Shown here: positions 5,624-17,507 of the stretch, in pieces | How the letters are laid out: every line of letters starts with the position of its first letter | How positions within the stretch are numbered: position 1 is the stretch's first letter | Assembly (NCBI GenBank): GCA_000998045.1 | Contig: LCCS01000010.1 | Location: 1 to 32,338 of the forward strand | DNA length: 32,338 nucleotides | Source: Parcubacteria group bacterium GW2011_GWD2_42_14 | GTDB lineage: Bacteria; Patescibacteriota; Minisyncoccia; Phycocordibacterales; UBA12088 | Direction of reading: 5' to 3' | Program-made: the position numbers and the translations under genes | Notes under the pieces: model-generated | What the model was told of the DNA's origin: nothing | Database searches by the model: none | What the model saw: only the letters and a program-made list of their open reading frames with translations

Positions 5624-8600
5624 ATGGCAAACTTTGTGCACCTACACACACATAGTCACTACTCACTCCTCAACGGCGTACCAAAACTCAAACCTCTCAT
5701 TGCGCGAGCAAAAGAATATGGAATGACTTCCCTAGCCCTTACTGATAACGGGAACATGTATGGTGCTATTGAGTTTTACCAACAATGCCACAAACAAGGT
5801 ATCAAGCCGATACTGGGTGTGGATGCATACATGGCGGCTCGTTCACGTTTTGACCGAGAAGAGGACATGGATCGGAAGCGAACGCGACTAGTGCTTCTCG
5901 CAGAAAACAACGATGGCTATCACAACCTCATCAAGCTTGTCACAAGCTCGTACGTTGATGGTTTCTTTTACAAACCACGCATCGACCGTGACATCCTTGA
6001 AAAGTTACATGGGGGACTTATAGCTATTTTGCCGTTTTTCTCTGGAGAACACGTGAGTGCCTTGAAAGCCAACAACCTTGAACGGGCTACTGACGTCATA
6101 GAATGGCACAAAAGAATCTTCGGCGAGGGAAACGTATTTTTAGAAATCACGCATCACAGAGAAGTCGAGGGAGAGGAGTACCTTCTGAACCAAACAAAGA
6201 AACTCGCGAAGAAGACTGGTGTGCCACTTATTGCAGCTCATGACACCTACTATCTTGACCCGAGTGATAGAGACGCACGCGAGACAATGATTAAGATTCA
6301 AACTGATGGAACTCTTGAAGAAGAGGGTTTTGTTGAAAACGAAGATTTTTCATTTATTGATGCCCTCACGGCAGAAGACCTCTTCCGAGAAGAGCCTGAA
6401 GCACTTGCGAACACAGAGCGAGTCGCAGAACGATGCAATGTAAATATAACACTCGGACAGTGGTACTTCCCAGCATTTACCATAGCTTCAGGAAGAACTC
6501 CAGATGAGGAACTGGTGCATGTTGCTCGAGAAGGGCTCGCTTGGCGCAAACTCCCCTACGAAGGAGCGCTGAAGGAAAGACTAGATTATGAATTACAAGT
6601 AATAAAAGACAAGGGATACAGCACGTATTTTCTGGCTGTGGCAGACCTTCTGCGTGAGGCACGCGAAAGAGAAATCCTAACTACGATTCGAGGATCAGTC
6701 GCTGGCTCGCTTGTAACCTTCGCCATGGGTATCACTAACGTCGACCCTATTCGATTTCATTTACCGTTCGAACGTTTCCTGAATCCCCATCGACCCAGCG
6801 CCCCCGATATCGACATGGATTACGCTGATAACCGTCGGGATGAAATGATTGAGTACACAAAAGAAAAGTACGGCCATGCAAACGTGGCACAGATAGGCAC
6901 CTTTGGAACCATGATGGCTCGAGCTGCAGTGCGCGACGTCGCACGAGCACTTGGATACCCGTATGGAATCGGTGACAAAATAGCCAAGGCAATACCTTTT
7001 GGTTCTCAGGGTTTTCCTATGACTATTGATACCGCACTCGAAACTGAGAAAGAATTTGCAAACCTCTACAAAAAAGACTCGGACACGAGACGTATCGTCG
7101 ATCTCGCAAAAAAAATTGAAGGGTGCGCGCGACATGTGGGTGTACATGCAGCGGGCGTCGTCATTGCACCTAGCCCTCTGTCAGGATTTGTACCCATACA
7201 GCCAGATCCAAAAGGAGGTGGAAAATACATCACGCAATACGATATGCATAGTGTGGGTGAAGATGGCGTTGGTCTCCTCAAGTTTGACTTTCTCGGTATT
7301 AAGAACCTTTCGATTCTTGCTGATGCCATCAAGCGAGTCAAGGAACGACACGGCGTTGTTATTGATATAGAGAACATACCACTTGATGATGAGAAAACTT
7401 TTACCATGTTGGCGAAGGGAGACACGGGCGGAGTCTTCCAGCTAAACGGTACAGCAATGACACGGTACTTGAAGGAGCTCAAGCCGACACGTATTGAGGA
7501 CATCAACGCTATGATTGCGCTCTATCGTCCTGGACCGATGAAAAACATCCCTGAGTACATTGCTCGCAAGCAAGGACGTTCACCTATCCAGTATTTCCAC
7601 CCCAAAGCAAAAACATTCTTGGAACCTTCGTATGGAATATTGGTATACCAAGACGACCTTCTCTTTACCGCGCTTGAACTCGCAGGCTACAACTGGGAGA
7701 CGGTGGACAAATTTAGAAAGGCTGTAGGTAAGAAGATACCTGAAGAAATGGCTAAACAACACGTTATTTTCGTTGAAGGATGTCAAAAGTTCTCAGGCAT
7801 GACCGCTCGAGATGCGGAGAAAATATGGGATCTCTTTGAACCATTCCAAGGCTACGGTTTCAACAAGGCACATGCCGCAAGCTACGGTAAAGTTGCGTAC
7901 CAAACAGCGTACCTTAAAGCCAACTATCCGGTAGAGTACATGGCAGCTATTCTTACCGCTGATGCTGGCGACGTCGATAAGGTATCTGAGGGAATTACCC
8001 AGTGTATCAAAATGGATATACCCGTACTTCAGCCTGACATCAACCAAAGTATTGGAAACTTCACAGTAGTAAAGTACGGTGAGCGTGACGCGATACGCTT
8101 CGGACTCAACTCAATAAAAAACTTTGGCGAAGGAATTGCACAGATTATTATTTCCGAACGAGAAAAGAATGGTGTCTTTAAAAGTCTAGAAGATTTTCTT
8201 ACAAGGATCCAAGACAGAAATCTCAACAAGAAATCTCTAGAGTCACTTGTGAAGTGTGGTGCCCTTGACTCATTTGAGTACACACGTGGGCGTATGCTCA
8301 CCTACCTTGAAGATTTACTTACCTTTAACAAAGACCTTGCAAAGGAGACTGCACAGGTTTCACTTTTCGCTCTTACTGACGGACACAAGACACTCACCTT
8401 GCCGGAAGCTGATCAAGCACCACAACGGGACATGCTCAGGTGGGAAAAAGAACTCCTTGGGCTCTACATTTCTGGTCATCCACTCGACCCCTATAAAGAA
8501 CGTCTCGAAAAGCTAGGACAAACAATCGCGAATGCCAAGAAATGTTACATTGGACTAGAAACAAAAGTAGGAGGTATTCTTTCTGAAGTAAAACCATTTA

Positions 8601-12437: not shown

Positions 12438-14708
12438 TTACGCTTTTTTCTCGAAGTGCTCAAAAGCCTTTGTAAGTGCTACTTTGGTTCCAATGTGATT
12501 GTTTGCGTACGTGTAATCAATACACTCTACAAGGATACCCAGTACATTTTCAAAGTCACCGTTACTCCATGTTGCTGTTTTACCAGCAATCTCTTTATCT
12601 GGAATACGTCCTCCTTCTAGGCGATATCGGTACACTTCATCAAGCTTACGCACGACAGCCGTGATTACCGCGCCGACGTCATTACCGCGTGATGCAAAAT
12701 CACGTAGGGTATCGAAGACTTTCTTTTTTTCAAGGTTTACAAGACTGTCGATAAAAATCATAGCAGTCTCATCACTTGATGATGGAGTACTCTTTACCTC
12801 AGGCTTTGTTCCTGTAGCTTGTGAAGAGTTGGTCACAGGAGCAGGAGAGGACATGGGTGCTGAATACTTCTTGCTGATTTGCTTCTGCTCTACCCTAAAC
12901 GCTTTCGGTTCAGCACTTGATAGTACATTGTTGATAGTAGTGTGCGGGATAGTATCCTGTACATCAAGAACGATATTGTTCTGTGATTTTCCAAGAAGTT
13001 TTTCTGCTCGTTCCTTTGAGAGAAGTATCCAACCATCTTCTTGAGGATATTCAGTTTTTGCGATTTCAAATAAACCAGTTAGATACTGTGTTGGACTTGA
13101 TTCAGTTTTTCGTATCTCTGCATACATGAGACGAAGTGCTTCAGGAGAGAGTAGTATGTTTTCCTTATGCGCCATGTCTTCAATAATGCTAATAGGATCT
13201 GAGGAGTTTGATCCATGAGGTGCTGTAGGGATTTCTGATAGTGCTGGGATGCTGTGGACTGGGGCCATGACGGACTTCATTTCTACAACCTCAGATACAT
13301 CCTCCTTGATGTTGTAAGCATACGCAGTTGAGAATGCTACCTTAAGCCGATCCATAGGGTGGTACCGTGTAGAAACGTAAGCAATAAGGACACTCAGTGC
13401 GAGTACCATTAGCCAGAAGAATGTCGTAAGCATAGGGCCAGCTTCAAATCCTGTGTATGGTACTTGGTCAAGCGTTATATAACTCCCTGTTTTGGTAACC
13501 GTTTTTCCAAGAATAATAGTTGGTTCTGGGTCATCTTCGTCCTCGTCTTCTTCATCCTCGTCTTCATCGTCGTCGTCATCACAATTTATACATTTACCAC
13601 CTCCACCACTTGATTTGATAGAGACACCTGCAGAACAAGTTACCTCCTTTCCATTTGAATCTTTAAATGTGCCAGTAAATGTTGTAGCCGACTGTATCGT
13701 CATGTTCTTTGAACCAGATAGAGTTGTGGCACCTATTCCCTGGTCTATAAATGCAGAGGATGTATTGCTACTACTCCAGTTTAGGGTTACCGTATCACCT
13801 TCTCTAACCTGTGTAGGAGATACATTCATACTACAACTCGGTGCTGGGTCTTCTGATTTCTTTTCAAATGCGACACATACAGGCACTACTGAATTTGGAG
13901 AAGAATTGTCTCCTGCAACTGCATGCACGACGGCGATTGAAGATCCTGCTTCAGTGAGAACAATTGCGTTTGCAAATGTGTTGTTCTTTGAATCCTGTAC
14001 AACATAATCCGCAATGTCTGTGGTAGGACCTACTGGACCTTTTTCCCACGAACTTCCACGAACCAACACATTCCATTGCTCTTTTGGCTGTGTAACATTT
14101 ACTCGGTCAGTGTATCCATCCCAAGAGGCAGTTTTAACCGTGTACGTACCTGCAGGAAGTGATTGAGATTTTGCGATTTCGTATTTGTTAGAATCATTAG
14201 AAAGAAGCAACGTCGCATCATTTCGCTCTTTACCACCATTGAAGTTAACAACCGTAACATTCTCTGATGCTGTGTATGGACATGCAGGAACTCGTGGTTC
14301 TTCTTTAGGAGGTTCTGTCACCGATACTGTTACACTACACTCAAATGTTTTTGGAGAATTGAGTTGGTGCGCAACGGCAGTGTACGTAGTTGTTTGTGTT
14401 GGAGACACAACAGTACTTCCTGTAACACCATCCCATTTTCCAGGAACACCCTCTATACTCACCCAAATATTTTCATCATCTGCAAAAGCCCATGTGAGTG
14501 TTGACGACTGACCGCGCTCAATCGATGCAGGACTTGCAGTCATTGACTCACAGTGCCAAGCAAGTGCTTCTTGTGAAGCAAAGCGTGTTACTGGTGCAGC
14601 TTCAAAAGCAAATAGTGAAATAAGGGTAAAGATAACAAAAAATACACCACCAAGCGCCATTGTGGTGTTTTTGCGTATTGTATCGATAAATGAAAAATTT
14701 GTTTTCAT
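12438..14708 (-). CDS. large Ig-like surface protein with internal sortase-like motif and cytoplasmic domain
   Basis: The 756-aa protein has an N-terminal hydrophobic segment (residues 18-36, signal or anchor). Two Ig-like repeats (about 52-130 and 291-364) share the pattern SPxxxxxGxxxTLxWxxxxx. A Gly-rich CINC motif (373-376) and a pure Asp/Glu run (377-393) follow, then VPYTG at 416-420, a membrane helix (425-446) and about 310 cytoplasmic residues. The cytoplasmic part has two folded-looking regions (500-575 and 645-756) joined by a Ser/Pro-rich linker. VPYTG plus a hydrophobic segment resembles an LPxTG sorting signal, and a sortase gene lies immediately upstream. It ends with four in-frame stops (TAA TAG TAA TAG). 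TATAAA lies 6 nt before the ATG, suggesting a leaderless mRNA. Substrate status is inferred. Confidence 0.75.
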   Translation of the reverse strand: MKTNFSFIDTIRKNTTMALGGVFFVIFTLISLFAFEAAPVTRFASQEALAWHCESMTASPASIERGQSSTLTWAFADDENIWVSIEGVPGKWDGVTGSTVVSPTQTTTYTAVAHQLNSPKTFECSVTVSVTEPPKEEPRVPACPYTASENVTVVNFNGGKERNDATLLLSNDSNKYEIAKSQSLPAGTYTVKTASWDGYTDRVNVTQPKEQWNVLVRGSSWEKGPVGPTTDIADYVVQDSKNNTFANAIVLTEAGSSIAVVHAVAGDNSSPNSVVPVCVAFEKKSEDPAPSCSMNVSPTQVREGDTVTLNWSSSNTSSAFIDQGIGATTLSGSKNMTIQSATTFTGTFKDSNGKEVTCSAGVSIKSSGGGGKCINCDDDDDEDEDEEDEDEDDPEPTIILGKTVTKTGSYITLDQVPYTGFEAGPMLTTFFWLMVLALSVLIAYVSTRYHPMDRLKVAFSTAYAYNIKEDVSEVVEMKSVMAPVHSIPALSEIPTAPHGSNSSDPISIIEDMAHKENILLSPEALRLMYAEIRKTESSPTQYLTGLFEIAKTEYPQEDGWILLSKERAEKLLGKSQNNIVLDVQDTIPHTTINNVLSSAEPKAFRVEQKQISKKYSAPMSSPAPVTNSSQATGTKPEVKSTPSSSDETAMIFIDSLVNLEKKKVFDTLRDFASRGNDVGAVITAVVRKLDEVYRYRLEGGRIPDKEIAGKTATWSNGDFENVLGILVECIDYTYANNHIGTKVALTKAFEHFEKKA

Positions 14709-14744: not shown

Positions 14745-15449
14745 TTATCGTTGCTCTTTGGCTATCAACCTCGCGGTAACTATCCAACGTTCCTGCTTTG
14801 TACCAAAACTATTACAAGTTGCAAGAGTAAGCTTTGGATACGACGAGTTAAAGTCTACACGCACATCCTCTGCTTCAGAAAGCTCGACTGTTTCAGTTGC
14901 GTACGTATACACATGTGTATCTGAATACACGGTAATGTGATCACCAGCCTTCAGCTTACTAAGCTCATTAAAAGCTTTAAAAGCTTTGTTGTTTATAACA
15001 GGTAAGTAACTTGAGTGTCCAAACAAAAGCATGTTTGCATTTTCTCCCAAATTTCCTGAGCCTGGGTAATGCACTGCTCCATTAAGTAACGCTCTATCAA
15101 GCACATCGATATCGGTACTCTGAGGTGTGATGATGGTAGTATCTAATGCAATTTTCTCAATCGAAATACGAGTAGGGAAAGTTGATTCAGGTACCAAGGG
15201 CTCATCTGCCATTTTTGAAGGAGCAACAACATCTAGAGATGAAGTAGCATTTTCTTCATACGCACCTATTCGCATTTCAGGCACAAAGTCAATTGAAACA
15301 AGCAGAACTGTAAGTAACAAAAAAGAGCCAACAACACGCAAAACAAAGGCTTTCTGGTTTTCAGTTGACATTTGTTCTTTTTGACTCTTTTGAAAATTTC
15401 TCATGCACGTTTTCTTTAAAATTTCACACTTCGTGTGCGAGAAAGACAT
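14745..15449 (-). CDS. sortase (class D/E-like transpeptidase)
   Basis: Sortases cleave an LPxTG-like signal and join the protein to another surface amine. The 234-aa protein has an N-terminal membrane helix (about 36-54) and the sortase beta barrel (90-234). The catalytic triad is visible as His145 (LFGHSSY), Cys212 in the TLATC motif and Arg221 (QERW). The start at 15449 fits an exact consensus promoter that would begin transcription at or beside it; in-frame methionines at residues 16 and 27 are alternatives, and the first 30 residues are not typical sortase. The 756-aa membrane protein 36 bp downstream is its likely partner. Confidence 0.92.
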   Translation of the reverse strand: MSFSHTKCEILKKTCMRNFQKSQKEQMSTENQKAFVLRVVGSFLLLTVLLVSIDFVPEMRIGAYEENATSSLDVVAPSKMADEPLVPESTFPTRISIEKIALDTTIITPQSTDIDVLDRALLNGAVHYPGSGNLGENANMLLFGHSSYLPVINNKAFKAFNELSKLKAGDHITVYSDTHVYTYATETVELSEAEDVRVDFNSSYPKLTLATCNSFGTKQERWIVTARLIAKEQR

Positions 15450-15457
15450 CTTAGTAT

Positions 15458-15486
15458 ATTATAGCAGTATATTTATATACTGTCAA
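15458..15486 (-). promoter_or_regulatory. consensus sortase promoter with palindromic operator
   Basis: On the minus strand TTGACA (15481-15486), a 17-nt spacer, and TATAAT (15458-15463) match the sigma70 consensus exactly, with TGC before the -10 as an extended element. The spacer and one flanking base hold an 18-bp palindrome (15465-15482) with 8-bp arms CAGTATAT/ATATACTG. A repressor bound there would block RNA polymerase. The promoter overlaps the last codons of the gene ending at 15473. Confidence 0.75.
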
Positions 15487-16213
15487 TATTTTGCATAGAC
15501 GACTTTGCTCCGTACCGCAACTCGTTATATAGAACAGTAAGAGTATACACAAACATATTGAGAACAGGGCTATGGACAGAACTCCTTCTTACTTCAAATT
15601 GATTTGGAAGTTCTCGTCTTATCGCTGGTACGAGTTGTGTAATAGTATGTGGTGGAGTCACTATCGAGTGAGTAGCATCATAAAGCAGTATTGGTTCTTC
15701 ATCATGCACTTCCCTTCTGATGTCTGCTTGCGCTACTACATGCGACACTATTTTTCTTCGCCTCTCTTCAGAGGTCTCTGAGACAGCTTGCACATACGCA
15801 TTTCCTGTTGTCAGTAACCTTTCACAAAGGGTATCTAATTTTAGAAGAAATACCACAAGTAAGTTCCCTACTAAAACTACGACTTCAAAAAGCTTTTTTG
15901 AAACAAGAACGATATTTTTTTCAAGTTCTGTAATCGAATATTTTTTTATTTCATTCTTAAAGAAACTTTCTTCGGCACCATAGTCTTTACGAGGAAATAT
16001 CCTTGCAGAAACGACATCTTCATGAACTACAGAGTCATCTACACCATCAAGGTTGATAGCATACGTGTTTCCATAATGAGAAAAATCATGCAGTAACTCA
16101 GATGACGCACTGAATCCTTTTTTTAAACAAGTATCAATCTCTTTCTGAGCTCGCTGAAAATGCCCAAAGAGTTTTGAGGGTAGTCCCACCAGTTGTATGT
16201 TTGAATTAGCCAT
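15473..16213 (-). CDS. hypothetical protein, 246 aa
   Basis: I do not recognise this family. The protein is mostly soluble with one strongly hydrophobic stretch (about residues 101-127, LFEVVVLVGNLLVVFLLKL) that could be a membrane helix or a buried one. The N-terminal half has many His and Asp; the middle is rich in charged helices. It is driven by its own strong promoter, which is back-to-back with that of the CARDB-like gene, and it precedes the sortase gene by 23 bp. The position suggests a role tied to surface assembly or its control, but nothing in the sequence proves it. Confidence 0.6.
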   Translation of the reverse strand: MANSNIQLVGLPSKLFGHFQRAQKEIDTCLKKGFSASSELLHDFSHYGNTYAINLDGVDDSVVHEDVVSARIFPRKDYGAEESFFKNEIKKYSITELEKNIVLVSKKLFEVVVLVGNLLVVFLLKLDTLCERLLTTGNAYVQAVSETSEERRRKIVSHVVAQADIRREVHDEEPILLYDATHSIVTPPHTITQLVPAIRRELPNQFEVRRSSVHSPVLNMFVYTLTVLYNELRYGAKSSMQNIDSI

Positions 16214-16421: not shown

Positions 16422-17507
16422 ATGAATGAGAATCAAATGAAGAAAAGCGAGAAGGTAGCGTCCACAATACTAAGAATTTTAGCAATTGTTGGACTTATCG
16501 CTATACTTGTTCTTGCAACATGGGTCGTTGTACAAGGCTCACGCGCGTTACCAAATATTGGAGAGAATCTAAGCGCCGCGGCTTCATCTGTACGTTCAAT
16601 ATTTAGTACTGCTCCTTCAGAGTCATTGGTTTTTGAACTTGAAAACAGAACTCTCGCAGTAAACGAGCCTTTTAAAGTCAGTTGGACATACACTGGTGAA
16701 AATCAACCTACTTCCTATACATTCACCTATGAATGTGGTTCCAATGTTGAACTCAACATTGAACATGAGTATGGTTGGGATAAGCTTCCTTGTGGAACAG
16801 CACAGAACATAGAGAAAAACCAAGTATCTATTGTTGCGACCAACAATCAGACTCGATTTGAAGATATTACGTTGACTGTAGATGCAGATACGCTTCGTGA
16901 TACTACAGTTATCACAATCATGAACGCTGACATTGCAACCTTGCATGTACCAGGAAGCACGAGCACAGCAACCACAACTACTCAAGCCACCTCGACTACC
17001 TCTACAGAGACGAAGACAACAACTACGGAGCCTAAGGCTGCGACAACCAAACCTACTACCGTAGCAACTGTTACACCGAAACCAGTTATAAAACCAACAC
17101 CTATCGTTGTTCCTCTTTATTCTGGTCCTGCTGATCTTGTTGTTGAAATAGCACAAACTGGTGTGTTGGCAGAAGTGAGAGGTGAAGATACGTTCTTCCC
17201 TGTCTCACCAATACCAAGCAACAAGGTGGCTGCTGTGACGTTCACCGTCACCAACAGAGGAGGTCTTGATTCTGGTGCATGGATATTCAAGGCTGAACTC
17301 CCTACAGAAGGTGATAGAGACTATTCATACACCTCACCTGTTCAAACATCTTTGAGCTCTGGCATGCAGGTAGAGTACACACTTGGATTCGATGAAATCG
17401 TCGAAAGTAGCAAAGGTACGATTAAAATCACCATCTTACCTACGAATAACGCTGACAAAAAAACAAACAACGTTGATTCAGTAATCATAAAGATTGACGA
17501 AAGGTAA
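16422..17507 (+). CDS. membrane-anchored surface protein with Thr-rich stalk and CARDB-like domain
   Basis: The 361-aa protein has one N-terminal membrane helix (about 14-38) and no C-terminal sorting signal. An extracellular beta-rich region follows (65-175, with FKVSWTYTG and a Cys pair at 105 and 124 that may form a disulfide). A Thr/Ala/Pro-rich stalk (180-230) looks extended. The C-terminal domain (237-361) resembles CARDB folds: ADLVVEIAQTGVL, VAAVTFTVTNRGGLDSGAWIFKAEL and a closing NVDSVIIKI strand. It is a probable adhesion or scaffold protein; the specific ligand is unknown. It is divergent from the sortase-side genes with which it shares the intergenic region. A methionine at residue 6 is an alternative start. 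Confidence 0.75.
   Translation: MNENQMKKSEKVASTILRILAIVGLIAILVLATWVVVQGSRALPNIGENLSAAASSVRSIFSTAPSESLVFELENRTLAVNEPFKVSWTYTGENQPTSYTFTYECGSNVELNIEHEYGWDKLPCGTAQNIEKNQVSIVATNNQTRFEDITLTVDADTLRDTTVITIMNADIATLHVPGSTSTATTTTQATSTTSTETKTTTTEPKAATTKPTTVATVTPKPVIKPTPIVVPLYSGPADLVVEIAQTGVLAEVRGEDTFFPVSPIPSNKVAAVTFTVTNRGGLDSGAWIFKAELPTEGDRDYSYTSPVQTSLSSGMQVEYTLGFDEIVESSKGTIKITILPTNNADKKTNNVDSVIIKIDER

Follow-up and report, generated by a model that had tools for sequence, protein, structure and literature searches.

An uncultured Parcubacterium encodes a 756-residue membrane protein in which what is very probably, judging from its conservation, a real sortase signal stands in the middle of the chain. 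Sortase signals are usually regarded as disposable C-terminal tags, and the cell-surface biology of Parcubacteria is poorly known. Here, the side of the signal that would be discarded is a conserved pair of folded domains, and predicted fold and profile similarity indicate that the pair is derived from a clamp loader: an AAA+ lid followed by a collar, free of the ATPase. The safest reading is that cleavage would leave behind a membrane-tethered docking or oligomerisation module.

The gene lies in a window (the whole stretch of DNA that was analysed, 32,338 nucleotides) on contig C10 of an assembly of 1.08 Mb and 94% completeness. Among named relatives, the closest is Parcubacteria group bacterium GW2011_GWA2_43_11, in which the whole protein is matched, with 86% identity in the best segment. 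Every genome of the GTDB family has a homologue (10/10), as do 85 of the 297 genomes of the order. Scanned as a single sequence against Pfam and NCBIfam, the protein has zero matches over cut-off. The signal sequence is likely cut after Ala48-Leu49-Ala50, a site read by eye. For the ectodomain, AlphaFold gives a pLDDT of about 75-94 per block, and the Foldseek/VIA matches are Ig/PKD-like modules. Residues 140-283 or thereabouts form a module with a WDGY ... SPNSVxPxCxAF pattern, which recurs in several homologues and corresponds to no Pfam family above cut-off. The first-pass annotation had placed VPYTG and a membrane helix in mid-protein, ahead of about 310 residues; the open reading frame and hydropathy agree, giving a tail of 308 residues that begins with a net basic stretch. 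In context the motif reads VPYTGF (416-421), and the cut is predicted between Thr419 and Gly420.

The same annotation had drawn attention to a pure Asp/Glu run beside a CxxC, just before the motif. Both are real; the run comprises 17 Asp/Glu, and the CxxC is present in 9/9 proteins of the GTDB family and in 10/91 loci in all. The run itself varies among close homologues, some of which have Pro/Thr- or Gly-rich linkers instead, and on this comparison it is a variable linker. The idea that run and CxxC form part of the sorting signal was rejected, because the run is missing from some close homologues.

Table 1. Features of the sortase substrate and of its neighbourhood (positions in the window).
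Feature	Position	Strand	Basis or remark
Gene for 756-aa sortase substrate with long predicted cytoplasmic tail	12438..14708	-	ORF
Residues 1-50, hydrophobic signal sequence	14559..14708	-	Hydrophobic at 14-41
Residues 51-366, ectodomain of Ig-like beta-sandwich modules	13611..14558	-	AlphaFold; Foldseek/VIA matches
Residues 377-393, pure Asp/Glu run after CxxC (373-376), disordered linker	13530..13580	-	pLDDT < 50
VPYTG, residues 416-420, putative sortase recognition motif	13449..13463	-	Conserved in 91/97 true members
Residues 423-448, membrane helix (stop-transfer)	13365..13442	-	Hydropathy
AAA+ lid-like domain, residues about 501-578	12975..13208	-	pLDDT mostly > 90; HHalign; Foldseek/VIA
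Clamp-loader collar (DnaX/HolA domain III-like), residues about 640-756	12441..12791	-	VIA; HHalign
Sortase	14745..15449	-	PF04203, E 2e-21; same apparent operon, upstream of substrate
246-aa protein, upstream of sortase	15473..16213	-	Genus-restricted
Divergent membrane-anchored ectodomain protein, conserved sortase neighbour	16422..17507	+	57 homologous ORFs in fetched loci

When the whole genome is searched with the DNA patterns P[Y/H]TG[hydrophobic] and [VILFM]PxTG, the VPYTG of the substrate is the sole match that has a membrane helix after it in an open frame. By itself the motif is as frequent as the control, and its meaning therefore rests on conservation. In the GTDB family, [V/I/L]P[Y/H]TG stands directly before the helix in the nine genomes that are readable to the motif. 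Aligning homologues was the check that the first-pass annotation had proposed, and it bears the motif out: a profile built from motif, helix and tail was searched against the 297 genomes of the order, and of the 97 true family members, 91 have P-x-T-G directly before the membrane helix. These 97 are the 99 matched ORFs of the first-fetched loci (91/99 with the motif before the helix), minus the fragments L044 and L133 and a HolA (L162), plus G183. A class-wide sample contained relatives in 20 of 384 genomes, 15 of the 20 inside the order. The commonest residues in the 91 motif ORFs are L-S-Q-[V/I]-P-Y-T-G-[F/L], with Y at the x position in 82 and Q in 72, while P, T and G are set by the search rule itself. 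The flanks are also conserved, LSQ before the motif and E/D after it, and the mean net charge after the helix is positive across the family (+1.7 to +3.1 over 12 residues).

Whereas the usual sorting signal lies at the very end of the chain and has a short tail, that of the 756-residue protein does not. Across the motif proteins, the length after the membrane helix ranges from 4-5 to about 370 aa; it exceeds 150 aa in 38 of the 91 and is 60 aa or less in 23, which makes a folded tail dispensable for sorting in general. Some genomes (L129, L123, L138, L128) have two to four PYTG proteins per cluster, with tails of 8-89 aa and without lid or collar.

The sortase gene that the first-pass annotation had described as adjacent is separated from the substrate gene by 36 bp, lying upstream on the same strand. 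Its product passes the curated cut-off of PF04203 (76.3 bits versus 26.6), and its H-C-R catalytic triad (H145, C212, R221) is invariant in 10 homologues; matches to the models for sortase classes E, D and C are below their cut-offs. The assembly has no second PF04203 match. With one sortase and one helix-linked motif in the genome, the pair looks dedicated.

Across the order (n=297), a sortase is present in 81 of 85 family-positive genomes and in 58 of 212 family-negative ones, with a Fisher value of 2e-29 that overstates independence because the genomes are related. Six true members are without the motif, four of them in sortase-less genomes that represent four different families (G108, G183, G134 and G191). 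An intact P-x-T-G is found in 0/4 of the sortase-less cases versus 91/93 in sortase-bearing genomes (Fisher 4e-6). The substrate gene lies near gyrB, thrS or dnaE in 74/91 loci, and since the motif-less homologues share this location, they are positional orthologues. In G108 (L122), APYIG stands where VPYTG stands elsewhere; this locus is a natural double loss. LPETS occupies the motif position in G183 (L250), and G134 and G191 (L102, L104) have lost ectodomain and motif alike. Same-genus relatives with sortase and motif exist for G108 (G028) and for G191 (G250). In G126 the sequence is YLAEVAKVE, versus YLSQVPYTG in its genus-mate G057; the fetched stretch around the gene has no sortase, and a divergent one lies elsewhere in the genome. 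A sortase-adjacent homologue without the motif, which the first-pass annotation had held would speak against it, occurs once: G050 (L105) retains the adjacent sortase, and there the ectodomain was lost together with the motif. The loss cases fit a rule by which the motif is kept only while cargo and sorting enzyme both exist, and conservation combined with co-loss led to rejection of a chance motif.

These data also bear on the notion that the motif is a structural juxtamembrane look-alike and that the sortase acts on other proteins. Cleavage of VPYTG is a prediction, and the conservation of the LSQ and E/D flanks would suit such a role; even so, it is very improbable, given that exactly Thr or Gly is lost or mutated in the sortase-less genomes, that family and sortase co-occur tightly, and that the searched motifs point to no further candidate substrate in this genome.

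Among the neighbours of the sortase, the 246-aa protein has six homologues, every one in the same genus, and no Pfam match above cut-off; it was rejected as a general partner because homologues outside the genus are absent from the fetched loci. Across the order, genes of the 16422-17507 type are divergently oriented and lie less than 2 kb from 51 of 60 complete sortases, and their products may act as acceptor or partner. No partner gene for the substrate tail was identified. The 16422-17507 protein has an N-terminal membrane anchor, a Ser/Thr-rich stretch and a C-terminal part that is CARDB-like by eye. Locus L122 of G108 contains a C-terminal sortase fragment (7487-7630, +) between gyrB and the substrate-family gene (6002-7201, -), in which an ectodomain of the divergent-neighbour type is fused to PYIG, membrane helix and lid.

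Structure prediction of the C-terminal part, another check proposed by the first-pass annotation, yielded two confident domains of a kind that it had not foreseen. Based on 34 sequences, AlphaFold gives a pLDDT above 90 over most of positions 51-128 and 191-306 of the 306-residue tail; the stretch between the two is predicted to be a disordered linker. In a Foldseek search of the tail against the PDB, the first 33 matches are all E. coli clamp loader subunits, and the best of these, DnaX (E 5.8e-6), spans both domains. The collar alone matches DnaX residues 242-361 with a VIA Z of 16.2 (2.2 Å over 112 residues), and the lid is also like an 80-residue N-terminal stretch of the human replisome chain 7pfo_A (Z 11.3). 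Since a Z of 13 can arise by chance between helical bundles, evidence from sequence is important. When the tail was aligned by HHalign with a cleaned set of 29 DnaX proteins of the same order, the result was Prob 88, E 3e-6 and a score of 50.7, versus scores of at most 21.4 for the controls (twenty column shuffles and the reversed profile). Lid and collar come in the same order as in DnaX, with tail positions 52-127 aligned to DnaX 154-217. HolA alone gave a weak profile match (E 0.004). Proteins of about 450 aa that were first taken for DnaX look DnaA-like and are without the YRKYRP start, and that comparison was dropped. In one-by-one scans of tail members, weak matches to holA (10/34, NCBIfam) and to the dnaX, RFC and DNA_pol3_gamma3 models were all below curated cut-offs; holA and dnaX are the models weakly matched by most members.

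Of the three domains of a clamp loader subunit, the collar (domain III) is thus recognisable by its fold and in HHalign, and the lid (domain II) beside it by fold and profile only. Domain I, the AAA+ domain with Walker A, is absent from the tail, in which the lid comes after a short juxtamembrane stretch; as the ATPase domain is absent, the tail is not a clamp loader subunit. It could be supposed that the collar still binds DnaX, HolA and HolB, tethering or titrating them at the membrane and coupling surface growth to replication. The homology of lid and collar to DnaX domains II-III would allow this, as would the position of the cassette near gyrB, thrS and dnaE in many loci. However, the substrate family has conserved tail residues of its own (L239, D240, R246, E270, D281 and Y284), and the gene neighbourhood may be mere shared synteny, so that such a link is improbable.

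Selection was compared by segment as dN/dS between the gene of the 756-aa protein and an 89% identical homologue (L032). The lowest values are those of motif and helix (0.023, with dS near saturation in the motif segment), collar (0.045), acidic linker (0.054) and lid (0.066), followed by the ectodomain (0.107) and by the juxtamembrane stretch and the lid-collar linker (0.20-0.28). Lid and collar are under strong purifying selection. The lid/collar tail also persists where ectodomain, motif and sortase have been lost (L102, L104), and its conservation in such orthologues implies a cleavage-independent role. G191 (L104) apparently keeps the collar without the membrane helix, suggesting that membrane tethering is not essential everywhere.

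The first-pass annotation had gone further and suggested that the freed membrane fragment might signal that the surface is assembled; the Thr-Gly cut would alter the state or stability of the lid-collar fragment and so report surface installation. In G057 (L097 5377-6219, +), the mature ectodomain is reduced to about 17 residues while VPYTG, the adjacent sortase and the collar tail are intact, and the cut therefore seems worth keeping with almost no cargo. The SrtA remnant of Streptococcus gordonii provides a precedent (Hall 2019, in PMC11502775). Against this stand the conservation of the tail in L102 and L104, which points to a function independent of cleavage, and the scanned neighbours, among which neither a histidine kinase nor any other regulator was seen. 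Signalling of this kind is possible, though doubtful, and the interpretation offered by the first-pass annotation is, overall, partly supported. More speculative, and rather unlikely, is a version in which cleavage frees or re-sets a membrane-tethered collar ring with the replication machinery, or some other cytoplasmic protein, as its binding partner; if true, surface building would be reported inward by a repurposed clamp-loader piece.

The reading that is probably correct is that of a dedicated sortase substrate whose remnant carries the collar as an ATPase-free docking or oligomerisation module. Retention of the tail without a sortase speaks against cleavage as its only purpose, and retention in G057 with almost no cargo suggests that the cut itself may matter; together, these two observations favour docking over signalling, though by a small margin. 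Motif conservation, sortase coupling, the clamp-loader ancestry of the tail and the selection on it were computed here, and the scheme that we infer extends them to topology, cleavage, acceptor and the binding partner of the tail. By means of its signal sequence, the 756-aa protein would be exported by Sec, cleaved by signal peptidase and halted at the stop-transfer helix. The adjacent sortase would then cut VPYTG between Thr and Gly, and the Ig-like ectodomain would be passed to an amino acceptor outside the cell. What remains, one helix with the lid-like domain and the collar, would be held in the membrane facing the cytoplasm. There, the collar would bring together precursors, or a cytoplasmic partner, beneath the site of assembly, and cleavage would not change this function. 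In clamp loaders (DnaX, RFC), the collar holds the ring subunits together, and it is by analogy with this activity that a docking or oligomerisation role may be assigned to the collar of the tail.

With the LPXTG-type signals of Gram-positive bacteria, the protein shares P-x-T-G, a hydrophobic helix, basic residues after it, a signal sequence and an adjacent sortase gene. It differs in that the signal is not C-terminal, with about 308 residues and two folded domains after the helix, and in that the motif core is [V/I]PYTG. The literature was searched for sortase signals that are extended at the C-terminus and have a cytoplasmic domain, and none was found; a search for sortase and clamp loader returned no paper joining both in one protein. 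Domains II-III of DnaX (gamma/tau) and HolA (delta) resemble the tail in lid and collar folds, in their order and at the profile level, whereas the tail is without ATPase domain I and Walker A, has a linker of about 60 residues separating lid and collar, and is part of one chain with a membrane helix and an exported ectodomain.

Sortases of the CPR are described by Meheust et al. 2019 (PMC6744442), who report the family fam000526 from over half of CPR. A PF04203 sortase in a CPR genome is common to both cases, matched by description only; that description names no substrate motif, whereas in the present case the enzyme comes with a motif defined across the clade and with a divergent neighbour gene. 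In Streptococcus gordonii, an intramembrane histidine kinase is the target of the residue that SrtA leaves behind (Hall 2019, cited in PMC11502775). The idea of a functional membrane remnant of a sortase substrate is shared with this C-peptide signalling; as cited there, the streptococcal remnant is a transmembrane end that acts through the kinase, whereas here there are two folded domains and no kinase was seen. The present case adds a sortase motif for a CPR order, an enzyme-substrate pair of a size suited to work in vitro, and natural loss mutants. CPR sortases are already known, as is a functional remnant in streptococci; in the literature searched, no sorting signal followed by clamp-loader-type domains was found.
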